Source of the DNA: Catenulispora sp. EB89
GTDB taxonomy: Bacteria > Actinomycetota > Actinomycetes > Streptomycetales > Catenulisporaceae
Direction of reading: 5' to 3'
Assembly (NCBI RefSeq): GCF_041261445.1
Contig: NZ_JBGCCU010000021.1
Coordinates: forward strand, 124,001-188,000
Length of the DNA: 64,000 nt
Below are positions 135-6,427 of this stretch, one piece after another. How positions within the stretch are numbered: the first letter of the stretch is position 1; the number at the start of each line of letters is the position of its first letter. The notes under the pieces are model-generated. The model had not been told where the DNA came from, searched no databases, and was given only the letters and a program-made list of their open reading frames with translations. The position numbers were made by a program, and so were the translations under genes.

Positions 135-1757
135 TCACTTTTCGCCGCGGGCCGCTTCGGTGACCAGCTCTTTCGCCCAAGGGTAGTCGGGTTTGCCGCT
201 CGGGGAACGGCGGATTTGCGACACCCGCACCAGCAGGCGCGGCACCTTGTAACCGGAAAGTCTGCCACGGCAGAACTCCTCCAGCTCGCCGTCCGTCGGG
301 GCGTCGTCGCCGTCCGAACGCGGCTGGATGACGGCGGCCACCCGGTTCCCGAACCGCTCGTCCGGTGCCCCGGCGACGATCGCGTCGAAGACCCCCGGAT
401 GCGCCTTCAGCACCGCCTCGACCTCCTCGGGGAACACCTTCTCCCCGCCGGTGTTGATGCACTGCGACCCGCGTCCGAGCACCGAGACGGAACCGTCCGC
501 CTCCAGCGTCCCCATGTCCCCGAGCAGCACCCACCGGCGGCCGTCGTGCTCGAAGAACGTCTCGGCGGTCTTCGCCGGGTCGTTGTAGTACCCCAGCGGC
601 ACGTTCCCGTGCTGCGCCACCCGCCCGACCCGGCCGTCGCCCGGCGTGGCCGGCCGGTGCTCCTCGTCCAGGAACACCGTGGTGCGCTCGTTGACGGTGA
701 AACGCATCCCGCCGGCCGGACCGCTGCCCGGCGCGGCGTCGCCGTTGAAGCCGCTCTCCGTGGAGCCGAAGTTGTCGCGGATCAGCACGTTCGGCAGCTG
801 CGCCTGGAGCTGTTCGCGCACTGCCTCGGACAGGATCGCGCCGGCCGAGCTGAGCACGAACAGGCTGCTGACGTCGGTCCCGGCCAGCGGCCCGGCCAGC
901 GCCTCGGCGAGGGGACGGCCCATGGCGTCGCCGACCATGGAGATGACGTTCGCCTTCTCCTGCTCGACGGTGCGCAGCACCTCGTGCGCGTCGAACTTCC
1001 GGTTCAGGACCACCTTCTGGCCCATGTTGAAGCTGATGAAGGTGGCGAGCTGCGCGGCGCCGTGCATGAGCGGCGCTATAGGGAACGTCGCCATCTGCCC
1101 CGCCGCAGGGTCGATACTGTCGGCGATTTCGGCCGGATCCTTCATGGGTTCGCCGTAAGGGCGTCCCCCTGCCATCCCCGCATAGAAGATGTCCTCATGG
1201 CGCCACATGACGCCCTTGGGCATCCCTGTGGTCCCGCCGGTATAGATGATGTAGAGGTCGTCTGCAGAGCGTTCTCCATGGGGGAGTAGTCCGTCCCGCT
1301 CCTCGGACTGCTCACGTACAGCGTTCTCATAAGTGACAGAGGGCAGATCCTCTATAGCGCCGCCGACGGAGACGATCGTCTTGAGCTTCGGGGAGTCGCC
1401 GGCGACCTCGCGCACCCGATCGCCGAACTCCGCATCCACTACTACGGCGACCAGATCGGCGTCCCTGTAGAGGTAACGGAGTTCGTCGGCCACATAGCGG
1501 TAGTTGATGTTGATCGGCACGGCGCGGACCTTCAGGCACCCCAGGACCGCCACCACGTACTCCGACCCGTTGTACATGTGCATCCCGACGTGGTCGCCCA
1601 CGCCTACCCCCCGCGCCAGCAGGAAGTGCGCCACCCGGTTCGCCTCGCGGTCCAACTCCCGGTACGTCCATCGCCGCACGCCGGGGACGACCAGGGCTTC
1701 CTTCTTAGGGATCTTGTCGACGACGCTCTCGAACAGGTCCGCGAGGTTGAACTGCAT
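135..1757 (-). CDS. fadD19: FadD19-like fatty/steroid-acid acyl-CoA synthetase
   Basis: This 540-aa ANL-superfamily ligase would activate a carboxylic acid to its CoA thioester through an acyl-adenylate. The P-loop YTGGTTGMPKG is at residues 172-182, followed by MWRHED, a combination typical of FadD19/FadD3-type steroid side-chain ligases. The C-terminal adenylation lysine is K522 in SGKPDYPWAK. The start is the ATG at 1757, with AAGGA about 10 nt upstream. It is the third gene of a minus-strand operon after two acyl-CoA dehydrogenases, 10 bp from the preceding stop. Mycobacteria have fadE26-fadE27-fadD17 in the same order, but this protein looks closer to FadD19 (548 aa) than to FadD17. Activity on a C24/C27 steroid acid is inferred from family and operator context. 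Confidence 0.8.
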   Translation of the reverse strand: MQFNLADLFESVVDKIPKKEALVVPGVRRWTYRELDREANRVAHFLLARGVGVGDHVGMHMYNGSEYVVAVLGCLKVRAVPININYRYVADELRYLYRDADLVAVVVDAEFGDRVREVAGDSPKLKTIVSVGGAIEDLPSVTYENAVREQSEERDGLLPHGERSADDLYIIYTGGTTGMPKGVMWRHEDIFYAGMAGGRPYGEPMKDPAEIADSIDPAAGQMATFPIAPLMHGAAQLATFISFNMGQKVVLNRKFDAHEVLRTVEQEKANVISMVGDAMGRPLAEALAGPLAGTDVSSLFVLSSAGAILSEAVREQLQAQLPNVLIRDNFGSTESGFNGDAAPGSGPAGGMRFTVNERTTVFLDEEHRPATPGDGRVGRVAQHGNVPLGYYNDPAKTAETFFEHDGRRWVLLGDMGTLEADGSVSVLGRGSQCINTGGEKVFPEEVEAVLKAHPGVFDAIVAGAPDERFGNRVAAVIQPRSDGDDAPTDGELEEFCRGRLSGYKVPRLLVRVSQIRRSPSGKPDYPWAKELVTEAARGEK

Positions 1758-1767
1758 GGAGGAGTCC

Positions 1768-2889
1768 TTACTCTGCCAGGTGTGCGCCGATGCGGAGGAG
1801 CTGCCGGGTGGCGGTGCCGAGGGTCTGCTCGATCTGCTGGCCCCGGACGAAGTAGCGGTGCAGCGGGTAGTCCGTGTCCACGCCGATGCCGCCGTGCAAG
1901 TGCTGCGCGGCGTGCAGGACGCGGGAGCCTGCGTCCCCTGCGTGGAACTTCGCTATAGCGACGTCTGCAGAGGCCTCTGCAGGAGTGGAGGAGTGGCCTC
2001 CGCGCGCGGCGTCGTCCATGAGCCACGCGGCGTGCAGCATGCACAGCCGGAGGGCTTCGGCACTGATGAAGGCGTCGGCGGCGCGCTGGGCCACGGCCTG
2101 GAAGGAGGCGATCGGCTCGCCGAACTGCTTGCGGGTACTGGTGTAGCGCGCGGTCATGGCGACTGCTTCGGTACACACGCCGGACGCCTCGGCGGCGTAG
2201 GCGATGGTGCCCAGATCGCGGAGCCAGTCCAGAGCCTCTGCGCCGCGCGCTAGAAGCGCCTCTTGAGGAACGGTTACCGCGTCTAGTTCCAGTTCCGCAT
2301 AGGGCTGCCGTCCGGTGGCCAGTAGCGGCGTCACCTTAAGAGCGGAGCGCGGGACGACGAACAGCGCGGGCGCGTCGTCGAGAGCGGCCGGGACGAGAAC
2401 GACATCGGCCAGGTCGCCATACGGGACCATCGTCTTTGCGCCGTCCAGGACAAAGGTGTCGCCCTCGCTGCGGCGCGCAGTAGTGGTGAGGGAGTCGGGT
2501 TCTCCGGGCTCTTCCAGGGCGGCAGTGGCCAGCTTGGCGCCGGAGGCGACGTCGGCGAGCAGGTCCTCGTGGCCGCCGAAGCGCGCCAGCGGAAGGGCCC
2601 CGAGGGCGATCGCCGCCACGACGGGGACGTAGGCCGTGTGCTTTCCGCCGACTTCGGCGAGCAGCGCCAAGCCCATGATCCCCAGGTCGCCGTCGGCGGG
2701 GAGCAGCGCGGTGACGGCTCCGGCGGCGGTGAGCGCGCGCCAGGCCTGCGCGTCGTGCACGGAGCCGATCCCGCTGCCGCGCGCGTCCTTCTCCAGCTCG
2801 GCCAGGCGCTCGTGGCCGCAGTGGTCGGCGAGGATCCGGTCGACGAGGTCGACCAGGGCCCGCTGTTCCTCGGTCAGCTCGAAATCCAT
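1768..2889 (-). CDS. fadE27: FadE27-like acyl-CoA dehydrogenase subunit
   Basis: A 373-aa acyl-CoA dehydrogenase starting MDFELTEEQRALVDLVDRIL, with C-terminal HLHGGIGVDTDYPLHRY. It is slightly shorter and more divergent than canonical ACADs, as expected for the second subunit of the alpha2beta2 heterotetrameric dehydrogenases known from mycobacterial cholesterol side-chain oxidation (ChsE family). The gene starts 9 bp after the FadE26-like stop and ends 10 bp before fadD, so all three are probably one transcript. The partner assignment is by family and adjacency; the exact substrate is not visible. Confidence 0.75.
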   Translation of the reverse strand: MDFELTEEQRALVDLVDRILADHCGHERLAELEKDARGSGIGSVHDAQAWRALTAAGAVTALLPADGDLGIMGLALLAEVGGKHTAYVPVVAAIALGALPLARFGGHEDLLADVASGAKLATAALEEPGEPDSLTTTARRSEGDTFVLDGAKTMVPYGDLADVVLVPAALDDAPALFVVPRSALKVTPLLATGRQPYAELELDAVTVPQEALLARGAEALDWLRDLGTIAYAAEASGVCTEAVAMTARYTSTRKQFGEPIASFQAVAQRAADAFISAEALRLCMLHAAWLMDDAARGGHSSTPAEASADVAIAKFHAGDAGSRVLHAAQHLHGGIGVDTDYPLHRYFVRGQQIEQTLGTATRQLLRIGAHLAE

Positions 2890-2898
2890 GGCGGGCTC

Positions 2899-4089
2899 CT
2901 AGTGGCGGGGGATGCGGGGCATGTCGAGCCCGAACAGGGCGATCAGGTCGCGCTGGATCTCGTTGGTGCCGCCGCCGAAGGTGAGGATCAGGACGCCGCG
3001 ATAGGCGCGTTCGACGCGGCCGGCGAGCAGGGCGCCGGGGGACTCCTTCTTCAGCGCGCCGGCCGCGCCGAGGACTTCCAGGAGCAGGCCGTACGCCTCG
3101 CAGTAGAGCTCGGTGCCCCAGACCTTGGTCGCGGAGGCGTCGGCGACGTCCAGTTCCGCGGAGGCGGCGACCTTCCAGTTGAACAGGCGCAGCGCGGCGA
3201 GCTTGGCCTGGATGCGCGCCAGGTGGACGCGGACCCACTCGCGGTCGATGACGCGGGTGCCGTCGGCGAGCTTGGTCTGCCGGGCCCACTCCACGACCTC
3301 GGTGAAGGGGCGCTCCAGGGATCCGGAGGAGCACAGCGCGACGCGCTCGTGGTTGAGCTGCGTGGTGATGACGCGCCAGCCCTCGCCGGGCTCGCCGATG
3401 ACGTTCTCCGCCGGGACGCGCAGGTCGGTGTAGTAGGTGGCGTAGGTGGAGGCCTCGCCGATGGTGTGGATCGGGGTGTAGCTGAAGCCCGGGTCCGAGG
3501 TCGGGACCATCAGGATCGAGATGCCCTTGTGCTTCTTGCCGGTGCGCTCCGGGGCGCCGGGGTCGGTGCGGCAGGCGAGCCAGACGTAGTCGGCGTGGTC
3601 GGAGAGCGAGGTGAAGATCTTCTGGCCGTTGACGACGTAGTGCTTCCCGTCGGGTTCCAGCACGGCGCGGGTCTTCAGACTGGCCAGGTCGGTCCCGGAA
3701 TCCGGCTCGGAGTAGCCGATGGCGAACATGCACTCACCGGCGAGGATGCGCGGAAGGATCTCTGCTTTCTGCTTTGCAGAGCCGAACCGCATGATGGCCG
3801 GCCCCACGGCGTTGACGGTGAGGAACGGCACCGGGGCACCGGCGCGCTGGGCCTCGTCGAAGAACACGAACTGCTCGACAGGCGTGAACCCCTGTCCGCC
3901 GTACTCCTCGGGCCACCCGACGCCCAGCCACCCGTCCCGGCCCATCCGCCGCACCGCTTCCCGGCTGCGCGGCCCGCCGAACTCGCCGCCGGACATCTCC
4001 TCGGCGACCTCGGGGGTGACCAGCTCGGCGAAGTAGGAGCGGAGTGTGTCGCGCAGCTGCGCCTGCGCCTCGGTGTACGCGATCCGCAT
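2899..4089 (-). CDS. fadE26: FadE26-like acyl-CoA dehydrogenase subunit
   Basis: A 396-aa dehydrogenase from ATG 4089 (MRIAYTEAQAQLRDTLRSYF). The FAD/substrate motif IGYSEPDSGTDLASLKT and the C-terminal GGGTNEIQRDLIALFGL are the FadE26 signature. Upstream ATGs exist at 4113 and 4143, but a perfect KstR-type operator lies at 4099-4112 and would fall inside a longer gene, so 4089 is preferred. No convincing Shine-Dalgarno precedes it, so the mRNA may be nearly leaderless. It leads the minus-strand operon with the FadE27-like and FadD19-like genes. Role: alpha,beta-dehydrogenation of a CoA-activated side chain. Confidence 0.78.
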   Translation of the reverse strand: MRIAYTEAQAQLRDTLRSYFAELVTPEVAEEMSGGEFGGPRSREAVRRMGRDGWLGVGWPEEYGGQGFTPVEQFVFFDEAQRAGAPVPFLTVNAVGPAIMRFGSAKQKAEILPRILAGECMFAIGYSEPDSGTDLASLKTRAVLEPDGKHYVVNGQKIFTSLSDHADYVWLACRTDPGAPERTGKKHKGISILMVPTSDPGFSYTPIHTIGEASTYATYYTDLRVPAENVIGEPGEGWRVITTQLNHERVALCSSGSLERPFTEVVEWARQTKLADGTRVIDREWVRVHLARIQAKLAALRLFNWKVAASAELDVADASATKVWGTELYCEAYGLLLEVLGAAGALKKESPGALLAGRVERAYRGVLILTFGGGTNEIQRDLIALFGLDMPRIPRH

Positions 4090-4098
4090 GAGGTGAAT

Positions 4099-4112
4099 TA
4101 GAACGTGTTGCA
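4099..4112 (-). promoter_or_regulatory. KstR-type operator
   Basis: TAGAACGTGTTGCA matches the published KstR consensus TnnAACnnGTTnnA at every defined position. It sits 10 bp upstream of the FadE26-like start, where a bound TetR repressor would block transcription of the fadE-fadE-fadD operon. Confidence 0.7.
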
Positions 4113-4243
4113 TGTGCGATGGCAAGGGTTTCTGATGGATCATCAGATTCGCACACCGGGTCGCCCGAACGGCGCCGGGCGAGGGCGATCATGCGGCCGC
4201 ACTGGTCGGCTGAGGGGACGGCGGACGCGGCGGGCGGGCCGCC

Positions 4244-4957: not shown

Positions 4958-5413
4958 TCACATCTTCGAGTGGTCCCAGGACGCCGTCCGCTTCGCCCGC
5001 ACCCGCACCACCACGCGCTTGGCCGCCTGCTGTTCCACGAAGGGCCGCATCGCCTCGGCGTCGGGGCCGAAGACCTCCGGGTAGCGTGCCGTGAGGTGCA
5101 TGCCGAAGGCCACGACCCGGTCGAAGTCCTCGATCAGCTCCACCTCGCCGTAGATCGTGACGCCGCGCAGCTCGTCGTAGGCGATCCCGTCCTCCAGCAG
5201 GCACGTGATCCGCGGATCGCGCCGCAGGTTCAGCGCCTTCTGCGACTTCCCGTACGTCCAGAACGCCAGGTCGCCGTCCAGTAGCGCGTAGTACATCGTC
5301 ACCAGGTGCGGCGTACCGTCGGGGTTCGCCGAGGCGATCTGGAGCTTGCGTGCGGCGGCGAAAAAGGTTTCGATCTCATCATCGGACATCCGGATGCGGT
5401 CCCGCTGGCTCAT
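4958..5413 (-). CDS. PPOX-class flavin/F420-binding oxidoreductase
   Basis: A 151-aa pyridoxamine-5'-phosphate-oxidase-fold protein (DDEIETFFAAARKLQIASAN, then PHLVTMYYALLDGDLAFWTY and KALNLRRDPRITCLLEDG), typical of small split-barrel enzymes using FMN or F420. The start is ATG 5413 (MSQRDRIRMSDD) or ATG 5389; neither has a strong ribosome-binding site. It is divergent from the MpaB-family gene across only 27 bp, which contain a near-match to the KstR box. The substrate is unknown. Confidence 0.75.
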   Translation of the reverse strand: MSQRDRIRMSDDEIETFFAAARKLQIASANPDGTPHLVTMYYALLDGDLAFWTYGKSQKALNLRRDPRITCLLEDGIAYDELRGVTIYGEVELIEDFDRVVAFGMHLTARYPEVFGPDAEAMRPFVEQQAAKRVVVRVRAKRTASWDHSKM

Positions 5414-5422
5414 GGGGAAAAG

Positions 5423-5436
5423 TAGAACAGGTTTCG
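5423..5436. promoter_or_regulatory. Near-match to KstR operator
   Basis: TAGAACAGGTTTCG fits TnnAACnnGTTnnA except for the last base (G instead of A). It fills most of the 27-bp gap between two divergent genes and could control both. This is weaker than the site at 4099. Confidence 0.35.
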
Positions 5437-5440
5437 ATTG

Positions 5441-6427
5441 ATGACGGCAAGGCTCACCGCGCTCACCGCCCGCCCCGCGGTCCCCAACCCGGCCCGCGGG
5501 CTGAAGGCGTTCGTCCGGCGCGAAGTGAACACCAGCGTCCACGGCGCGCGCGGCCTCCGGCTCCAGGAGCGCTACGCCAACCCGCCCGGCGATCCGGGGC
5601 TGTTCGGCCCGGGCTCCGTGACCTGGCGCGTGCACTCGGACGCGCCGGGCATGCTGATGGGCGGCTTCGCCTCGCTGATGCTCCAGTCGCTGCATCCGCT
5701 GGCGATGGCCGGCGTCGACCAGCACTCCGACTTCCGCACCGACGCGATCTCGCGGCTCAACCGGACCGCCGCCTACGTGATGTCCACGAGCTTCGGCTCC
5801 ACCGAAGTGGCCGAGGCGGCGGTCGCGCACGTCCGCGACCGCGTCCACCCCCGCATCAACGGCACCGCCCCCGACGGCCGCCCCTACAGCGCCGCCGACC
5901 CGCACCTGCTGACCTGGGTCCACGTCGCCGAGGTCCGCTGCTTCCTGGCCGGGTACGAGCGCTTCGGCGCGCCGCCGCTGACCCCCGCCGAACGCGACCG
6001 CTACTACCGCGAGGTCGCGGTCCCGGCGCGCATGCTCGGCGCGGAGGACGTGCCGGAGTCGGCGTCGGAGGTCGCGCGGTACCTGCGCGACATGCGCCCC
6101 GAGCTCCAGGCCACCGAGGCCGCGATCGAGGGCATCCACTTCATCCGGACCTACGGCGAAACGCCGGGGGAGCGCGCGGCGGTCCGGCTCCTGATGAACG
6201 GCGCCGCCGCGCTGCTCCCGGACTGGGCCCGCGAGCCGCTGCGGCTGGGCCGCCCCGACGCCGTACGCATCCTCATCGACCGTCCGCTCGCGCAGACCGC
6301 CGGGCGCTTCATCCGGTGGGCGTTGCAGCCCTCGGAGATCGTCGGCACGGCCTACGAGCGGATGGGCATGACGCCGCCGCCCCAGCACCTCGGGTGGCGG
6401 TCGGCGCCCGGCACGTCCCGCGACTAA
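5441..6427 (+). CDS. MpaB/DUF2236-family oxygenase
   Basis: A 328-aa alpha-helical protein of the oxygenase MpaB / DUF2236 family, related to latex-clearing protein haem oxygenases. Family features are GPGSVTWRVHSDAPGMLMGG near residue 60, HPLAMAGVDQHSDFRTDA (two conserved histidines) and LTWVHVAEVRCFLAGYERFG near residue 160. The ATG at 5441 directly follows an in-frame TTG at 5438; no clear ribosome-binding site is present. It is divergent from a PPOX protein with a KstR-like box between them, suggesting a role in lipid or steroid catabolism (inference). Confidence 0.75.
   Translation: MTARLTALTARPAVPNPARGLKAFVRREVNTSVHGARGLRLQERYANPPGDPGLFGPGSVTWRVHSDAPGMLMGGFASLMLQSLHPLAMAGVDQHSDFRTDAISRLNRTAAYVMSTSFGSTEVAEAAVAHVRDRVHPRINGTAPDGRPYSAADPHLLTWVHVAEVRCFLAGYERFGAPPLTPAERDRYYREVAVPARMLGAEDVPESASEVARYLRDMRPELQATEAAIEGIHFIRTYGETPGERAAVRLLMNGAAALLPDWAREPLRLGRPDAVRILIDRPLAQTAGRFIRWALQPSEIVGTAYERMGMTPPPQHLGWRSAPGTSRD

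Follow-up and report, generated by a model that had tools for sequence, protein, structure and literature searches.

A KstR-type operator in front of a FadE26-FadE27-FadD19-like operon in Catenulispora sp. EB89, and a predicted regulon that suggests sterol side-chain removal with the rings left intact

In a 64,000-nucleotide stretch of the genome of the soil actinomycete Catenulispora sp. EB89 (positions 124,001 to 188,000 of contig NZ_JBGCCU010000021.1, hereafter the window), a 14-bp palindrome lies in front of three genes resembling the sterol side-chain genes fadE26, fadE27 and fadD19. Is the palindrome a genuine operator for the regulator KstR and, if so, does the host degrade sterols completely or only in part? 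The operator and the genes behind it are the following.

Positions 135..1757, minus strand: FadD19-like acyl-CoA ligase, 540 aa (NF005863, 714.7 bits against a cut-off of 543; FadD19 group, 100/100)
Positions 1768..2889, minus strand: FadE27-like partner subunit, 373 aa (4x28_D, 195 bits)
Positions 2899..4089, minus strand: FadE26-like acyl-CoA dehydrogenase, catalytic-type subunit, 396 aa (4x28_A, 478 bits; tree)
Positions 4099..4112, no strand assigned: KstR-type operator TAGAACGTGTTGCA (sequence, 22.2 bits, conservation in the genus)

All three genes are on the minus strand, with intergenic gaps of 9 and 10 bp. Among solved structures the dehydrogenase pair is closest to PDB 4x28, whose two chains score 478 and 195 bits and which we take to be FadE26-FadE27 (ChsE4-ChsE5) of M. 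tuberculosis. The NHERVA glutamate of the FadE26-like subunit is residue 248, while the FadE27-like subunit, compared by eye, has no Glu at the corresponding place; two adjacent unlike subunits with the catalytic Glu in one of them are the mark of a ChsE4-ChsE5-type enzyme. For the remaining comparisons we used Nocardia farcinica record NZ_LN868939.1, which has no annotation in the stretch used and whose genes were labelled in this analysis. The labels HsaA, HsaB, HsaC, HsaD, KstD and KstR pass NCBIfam cut-offs and KshA relies on PDB and Pfam matches, while the others are assumed from similarity plus gene order, FadD19 from its position beside EchA19. This FadD19 candidate matches NF005863, as does the window ligase, and in a 22-row tree the two grouped together (100/100), apart from FadD17 and FadD3, ruling out that the window ligase is a FadD17. 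In a tree of 37 dehydrogenases, the FadE26-like protein fell outside the FadE29 group (85/86) and was not firmly placed with N. farcinica FadE26; its pairwise identity is 57.9% to the latter and 50.4% to FadE29. It is thus not a FadE29, and the protein that does fall in that group is a paralogue encoded on contig C1. The initial annotation had described a dehydrogenase pair and ligase of the steroid side-chain type, a description now supported as FadE26/FadE27/FadD19-type genes by the 4x28 chains, NF005863 and the tree. It had also named clustering with non-steroid families as evidence against itself; the ligase fell squarely in the FadD19 group and the dehydrogenase outside FadE29, while the tree did not settle the link of the latter to FadE26. 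A Streptomyces clavuligerus plasmid also gave a match, to one acyl-CoA dehydrogenase, with no FadE27 or ligase annotation nearby in the 25 kb shown.

The exact fit of TAGAACGTGTTGCA to the KstR consensus, the starting point of the initial annotation, was confirmed at 4099-4112. Its adjacency to the operon also stood, while the distance of 10 bp proved to be a count of positions, there being 9 bp between the operator and the minus-strand start codon at 4087-4089. The window site matches TnnAACnnGTTnnA near a promoter, the form by which membership of a KstR regulon is judged. Among the mycobacterial genes with such sites, we take Rv3504 to be fadE26. In the consulted parts of Kendall 2007 (PMC1995591), the EMSA-positive KstR site of Rv0551c/Rv0552 is a 14-mer identical to TAGAACGTGTTGCA, and that of Rv3503c/Rv3504, also EMSA-positive, is one base off the window 14-mer. 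We scored sites with a matrix made from the 47 published mycobacterial KstR sites of that source, by which the window site (22.2 bits) ranked 6th among the 56 scored of the 57 consensus sites in the genome. The consensus TNNAACNNGTTNNA has 57 matches in 11.9 Mb and the same pattern read backwards has 14; since about 30 are expected by chance under an order-3 Markov model, trained on 1.16 Mb of partly overlapping stretches of the host genome, the bare consensus is weak evidence when taken alone. According to the same model, about 1.1 14-mers scoring as the window site does are expected per 11.9 Mb, and 0.2 per genome scoring at least 24 bits, where 5 were observed.

The deciding evidence came from conservation. 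All ten genomes of the genus carry the site 9 bp ahead of the ATG, the total being ten and not eleven because L082 and G018 appear to be the same genome (the promoter stretch of L082 equals L177 from G018). Within the 14 bases, variation among these genomes was confined to the third base of the TGnAAC half, which is a free position in the consensus. Beyond the genus, 64 of 80 FadE26 relatives from genome_contigs (the best 80 of more) had a site of at least 18 bits between −250 and +30, as compared with 0 of 80 when a control stretch of 280 bp inside the gene was scored (top score 12.5). Sixteen of these best 80 had no nearby site of at least 18 bits, and six of the sixteen were examined: the site of L084 heads its cassette, the only sites of L086 and L108 lie elsewhere, and L083, L085 and L125 gave nothing above 14 bits in the DNA examined. 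Since it is conserved across the genus, rather than merely matching a consensus, we judge the operator to be real, confirming the observation of a KstR-type operator before the FadE26-FadE27-FadD19-like operon. As a separate observation, six FadE26 relatives from MAGs titled Deltaproteobacteria or Myxococcales (L099, L102, L104, L109, L132 and L139, with L102 and L104 placed in Myxococcota) have upstream KstR-type sites of 21.3-26.0 bits; the DNA examined at these loci showed no KstR gene.

Three further elements surround the operator.

Positions 4097..4102, minus strand: −10-like hexamer TCTAAT, 5/6 to TATAAT, unchanged in 10/10 genus genomes
Positions 4120..4125, minus strand: −35-like hexamer TTGCCA, 5/6 to TTGACA, unchanged in 10/10 genus genomes
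Positions 4131..4147, no strand assigned: second inverted repeat, a perfect 7-3-7, TCTGATGATCCATCAGA on the minus strand, just upstream of the −35-like box

Read along the minus strand, the order is TTGCCA, a 17-bp spacer, TCTAAT, 7 bp and the ATG, with the operator overlapping the first four bases of TCTAAT; the motif of kstR itself is described in Kendall 2007 (PMC1995591) as partly overlapping the −10 region. A strict promoter scan did not list this promoter, because in that scan the second base of the −10 hexamer must be A. No ribosome-binding sequence was seen before the ATG, so the window promoter likely gives rise to a leaderless transcript. The longest open reading frame of the first gene spans 2899-4143 on the minus strand, and the start at 4089 chosen in the initial annotation is fixed by the conserved spacing together with protein alignment from residue 1 of both chains. 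The TCTGATGATCCATCAGA repeat was exact in nine of the ten genus genomes, with one base altered in the tenth, and its exact matches among 220 loci were only copies of this promoter; it may be the binding site of a second regulator.

A search for a KstR gene in the genome, one of the checks that had been proposed, found a relative at C21:71899-72579, on the same contig as the operon and 55.5 kb from it. The protein is 47% identical to N. farcinica KstR, a query located through its own palindrome, with an E value of 5.3e-44 as compared with 6.2e-9 for the next best match. KstR structures were its top PDB matches, and KstR was its sole NCBIfam match at 1e-40, although the 199 bits obtained are below the cut-off of 280. 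The DNA-reading helix is near-identical in the two proteins (VALGTLYRYFPSK and VAVGTLYRYFPSK); a KstR tree was distorted by a long-branch outgroup, and only its alignment was used. Another candidate for KstR, the gene beside FadE34, turned out to be methyltransferase-like. Upstream of the host kstR, at 150 bp, there is a weak site, AGGAACTTGTTCTA, of 14.9 bits, a score for which about 37 14-mers are expected per genome; an upstream site is present at kstR in 10/10 genus genomes. In another family of the same order, sites of 19.5-20.8 bits were found at 10 of 10 KstR loci examined, drawn from the 20 of 33 matches for which a locus was given, and an eleventh locus (L248) had one of 17.7 bits. 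Five of the eight longer-flank KstR loci of that family (L241, L242, L244, L245 and L246) also carry, within about 6 kb of KstR, a relative of the Rv3520c-type oxidoreductase (61-65% to that of the host).

Another proposed check, for further KstR sites, gave eight loci with side-chain-type genes preceded by KstR-type sites, the window included. The absence of a KstR homologue or of other sites, which the initial annotation had also named as evidence against itself, was therefore not observed. The seven loci outside the window have sites of 18.8-27.6 bits and are given below, their gene names reflecting similarity to N. farcinica; they were found by reading around sites, so that side-chain genes lacking a site would escape.

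C1:364238: FadE-ChsH2-FadE-ChsH1-Ltp2, 27.6 bits
C21:82432: FadE34-like, 25.9 bits
C39:13960: Rv3520c-type oxidoreductase, 24.6 bits
C20:8508: EchA19, 24.5 bits
C25:51482: Cyp125, 20.5 bits
C34:23182: gene row including FadD17-Rv3521-Ltp4-Ltp3, 19.5 bits
C42:8449: row with ChsH3 and Hsd4A, 18.8 bits

The host Cyp125 scored 504 bits against CYP125 structures and 292 against the next family, CYP124, and the relatives of Ltp2, Ltp3 and Ltp4 showed 48-69% identity. At C34:49311 (L050 8001) a site of 24.6 bits, TAGAACGTGTTACA, is flanked by a Ser/Thr kinase gene on one side and riboflavin-type genes on the other, and no steroid gene was recognised beside it. The window itself contains one more, weaker site.

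Positions 5423..5436, no strand assigned: weaker KstR-like site TAGAACAGGTTTCG, 15.8 bits, flanked by divergent genes

Its neighbours are a small gene on the minus strand (4958-5413) and an MpaB/Lcp-type oxygenase gene (5438-6427), with divergent starts. The 14-mer was kept in eight of the nine genomes in which the gene was examined, the last base differing in the ninth, and TAGAACAGGTTTCG is a possible second KstR target in the window.

We judged the capacity to open the rings on two genome-wide markers, KshA and HsaC. Query searches of the host genome for the two proteins gave no match, and neither did the models KshA_C (PF19298) and HsaC (NF045631) in its 11.9 Mb, rated 100% complete. The models also had no match in the Catenulispora MAG L082 or in MAGs L083 and L084, labelled Frankiales, the completeness rating being given for the host and not for these three. 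Of the 17 genomes or records searched, 13 were positive with the KshA_C model and 12 exceeded the cut-off of the HsaC model. Fourteen control genomes matched neither, so that the degraders added for comparison and the relative G039 serve as the positive comparisons. The ring A/B genes kshA and hsaC are accordingly not among the KstR targets, both being absent from the genome. The original proposal, degradation of sterols or similar polycyclic lipids by the host, is thus supported for side-chain catabolism and not for ring degradation. The only ring-acting enzyme found in the host was a KstD-like Δ1-dehydrogenase (907.6 bits; cut-off of the 3-oxosteroid 1-dehydrogenase family, 788), with no KstR site above 16 bits in the 20 kb examined around its gene. 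The longer reading of this gene (L162 9617-11254, C8:392.6 kb) starts with a twin-arginine-like signal, so the enzyme may act outside the membrane. Elsewhere, at C22:137-148 kb (L163), a row of aromatic-type genes encodes a LigB dioxygenase together with proteins resembling HsaE/F/G (40-56%) and HsaA/B/D (33-38%). Because the dioxygenase is LigB-type and no KstR site above 16 bits was present in the stretch examined, we rejected this row as a steroid ring cluster; it probably belongs to another aromatic pathway.

These results bear on the possibility that the host mineralises sterols fully, using ring-opening enzymes only distantly or not at all related to KshA and HsaC. The KstD of the proper family and the Hsa-like proteins on C22 would fit such a pathway, as would the scope of the genome-wide ring-opening search, which covered two markers, KshA and HsaC. 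However, the same two models that came up empty in a genome rated complete do detect the cluster of G039, and the C22 row has a LigB-type dioxygenase and no KstR site at that threshold, making full mineralisation unlikely. In G039, one stretch holds KstD-HsaB-HsaC-HsaD-HsaA plus KshA-HsaF-HsaG-HsaE, indicating that the KshA and HsaC queries work in this order; no KstR site above 16 bits was found in the 19 kb examined there.

Among 41 genomes (the host and 40 relatives), surveyed for FadE26-type dehydrogenases at E 1e-90 or better and for KstR at 1e-25, the dehydrogenase was present in 26 and KstR in 33. All 26 have KstR, which was also present in 7 of the 15 genomes without the dehydrogenase. 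KshA_C matched in five of the 41, canonically in G039 (306 bits) and weakly in four (54-93 bits), one of these from the same genus. In L087, labelled Frankiales, KshA was present, as were two fragments of HsaC located at the ends of contigs. In MAG L084 (870-12477), also labelled Frankiales, a compact cassette of about 12 kb is arranged around a 26.2-bit site, with EchA19-FadA5 on one side and Cyp125-Rv3521-Ltp4-Ltp3-Hsd4-like-FadE26-FadE27-FadD19-KstR on the other. MAG L083 has the right-hand part of an L084-type cassette from Ltp3 on, with KstR last, and the gene order in these two MAGs ties KstR to the FadE26-FadE27-FadD19 kind of operon. In the other family of the order mentioned above, the dehydrogenase belongs to the FadE29 group (support 85/86, with five loci included in the tree) and has a KstR site at 16 of 16 loci, with no match to FadE27, FadD19 or ChsH near the gene.

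That family lends some credit to a different reading, in which KstR is a broader regulator, the operon serves another lipid, such as isoprenoid or methyl-branched acyl-CoAs, and the steroid names are a carry-over from mycobacteria. There, KstR accompanies a lone FadE29-like gene in genomes free of ring genes; KstR is termed a more general lipid regulator in the part of PMC3388012 consulted; and the window operon has close by an MpaB/Lcp-type oxygenase gene, whose conserved site is weak. Against this, the host set spans several consecutive steps of sterol side-chain removal, Cyp125 is far nearer to CYP125 than to CYP124, the ligase belongs to the FadD19 group, Ltp2, Ltp3 and Ltp4 all have relatives, and L084 carries the side-chain genes as one cassette, so that we regard another lipid as quite improbable. 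Chance would account for roughly half of the 57 bare consensus matches, and many of the 57 lie inside genes; even so, we reject as extremely improbable that the 14-mer is a chance match without function, on the spacing shared by all genus genomes, the 64/80 versus 0/80 control and the identical EMSA-positive published site.

We therefore return to sterol side-chain removal under KstR. That the KstR-type operator controls the FadE26-FadE27-FadD19 operon we hold to be practically certain. The whole explanation, with the operon under this operator and the regulon confined to the side chain, is the reading we favour with measured confidence, judging from the genome sequences. Points that weigh against it are the below-cut-off score of the host KstR and its weak upstream site, the 16 FadE26 relatives with no site of at least 18 bits nearby, the strong site beside the kinase and riboflavin-type genes, and the finding of no KstR site above 16 bits in the 20 kb around the KstD gene. 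In the mechanism that we propose, KstR bound at the promoter would exclude RNA polymerase. After entry of the sterol, Cyp125 would oxidise the end of the chain and FadD19 would form steroid-26-oyl-CoA, the substrate of FadE26-FadE27; the mycobacterial order is likewise Cyp125, FadD19 and ChsE4-ChsE5 (FadE26-FadE27), and mycobacterial KstR is released by steroid-26-oyl-CoA (both from the text available of PMC6678751). Since the predicted product of FadD19 resembles this ligand, the operon's own intermediate would turn the operon on. The missing KshA and HsaC suggest to us a regulon confined to the side chain, whose end products would be ring-intact, perhaps Δ1-dehydrogenated, steroids together with propionyl-CoA and acetyl-CoA. 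Plant sterols are a fair guess for the substrate, because relatives of Ltp3 and Ltp4 are present in the host. More tentatively, sterol side-chain removal could be the ancestral core of KstR control and ring opening a separable accessory, in which case the host genus and the cassette-bearing MAG would be natural side-chain-only degraders that gain propionyl- and acetyl-CoA and pass on C19/C22 steroids to other members of the soil community.

Taken alone, the operator is an ordinary KstR site, and such a report is apparently lacking for the host group: of the open-licence PMC articles listed on KstR in Streptomyces or Streptomycetaceae, on sterols in Catenulispora and on partial or side-chain degraders, none described a case of this kind in its title or abstract start. 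Our results suggest a natural trim-only version of the sterol pathway. If this holds, natural sterol strippers that leave the rings intact would be useful for steroid manufacture, and the genus Catenulispora is culturable. They would also form a class of partial sterol users missed by the genomic survey of PMC4810484, which, in the portion consulted, required KshA plus HsaC and reported 55 of 57 Streptomyces genomes to lack the pathway; because of that requirement, genomes like that of the host are outside its reach.

How does this system compare with those already known? The second-best solved relatives of the dehydrogenase pair, Tcur3481-Tcur3483 (PDB 6wy8, presumably a steroid enzyme, of the cholate type, from Thermomonospora curvata), reached 414 and 185 bits, below the 478 and 195 of 4x28. 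With the mycobacterial KstR regulon (PMC1995591, as far as the excerpts consulted go) the host shares the 14-bp palindrome, its position over the −10 region, the side-chain targets and a TetR-type KstR with a near-identical DNA-reading helix, while it differs in a divergent KstR (47% to N. farcinica), eight scattered loci and the absence of KshA and HsaC. The mycobacterial FadD19 and ChsE4-ChsE5 carry out CoA activation of the C26 acid followed by two-subunit α,β-desaturation, as proposed here (PMC6678751 and PMC6273163, consulted in part). The ligase and the dehydrogenase pair form one operon in the host, whereas in N. farcinica the ligase is on the opposite strand after one gene. Finally, the androstenedione-producing Mycolicibacterium strains are production strains from a lineage of full degraders, while here KshA is missing genome-wide and from most relatives; in those strains (e.g. 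PMC7532642, in the part consulted), the side chain is taken off and the ring left intact, which is the outcome predicted for Catenulispora.
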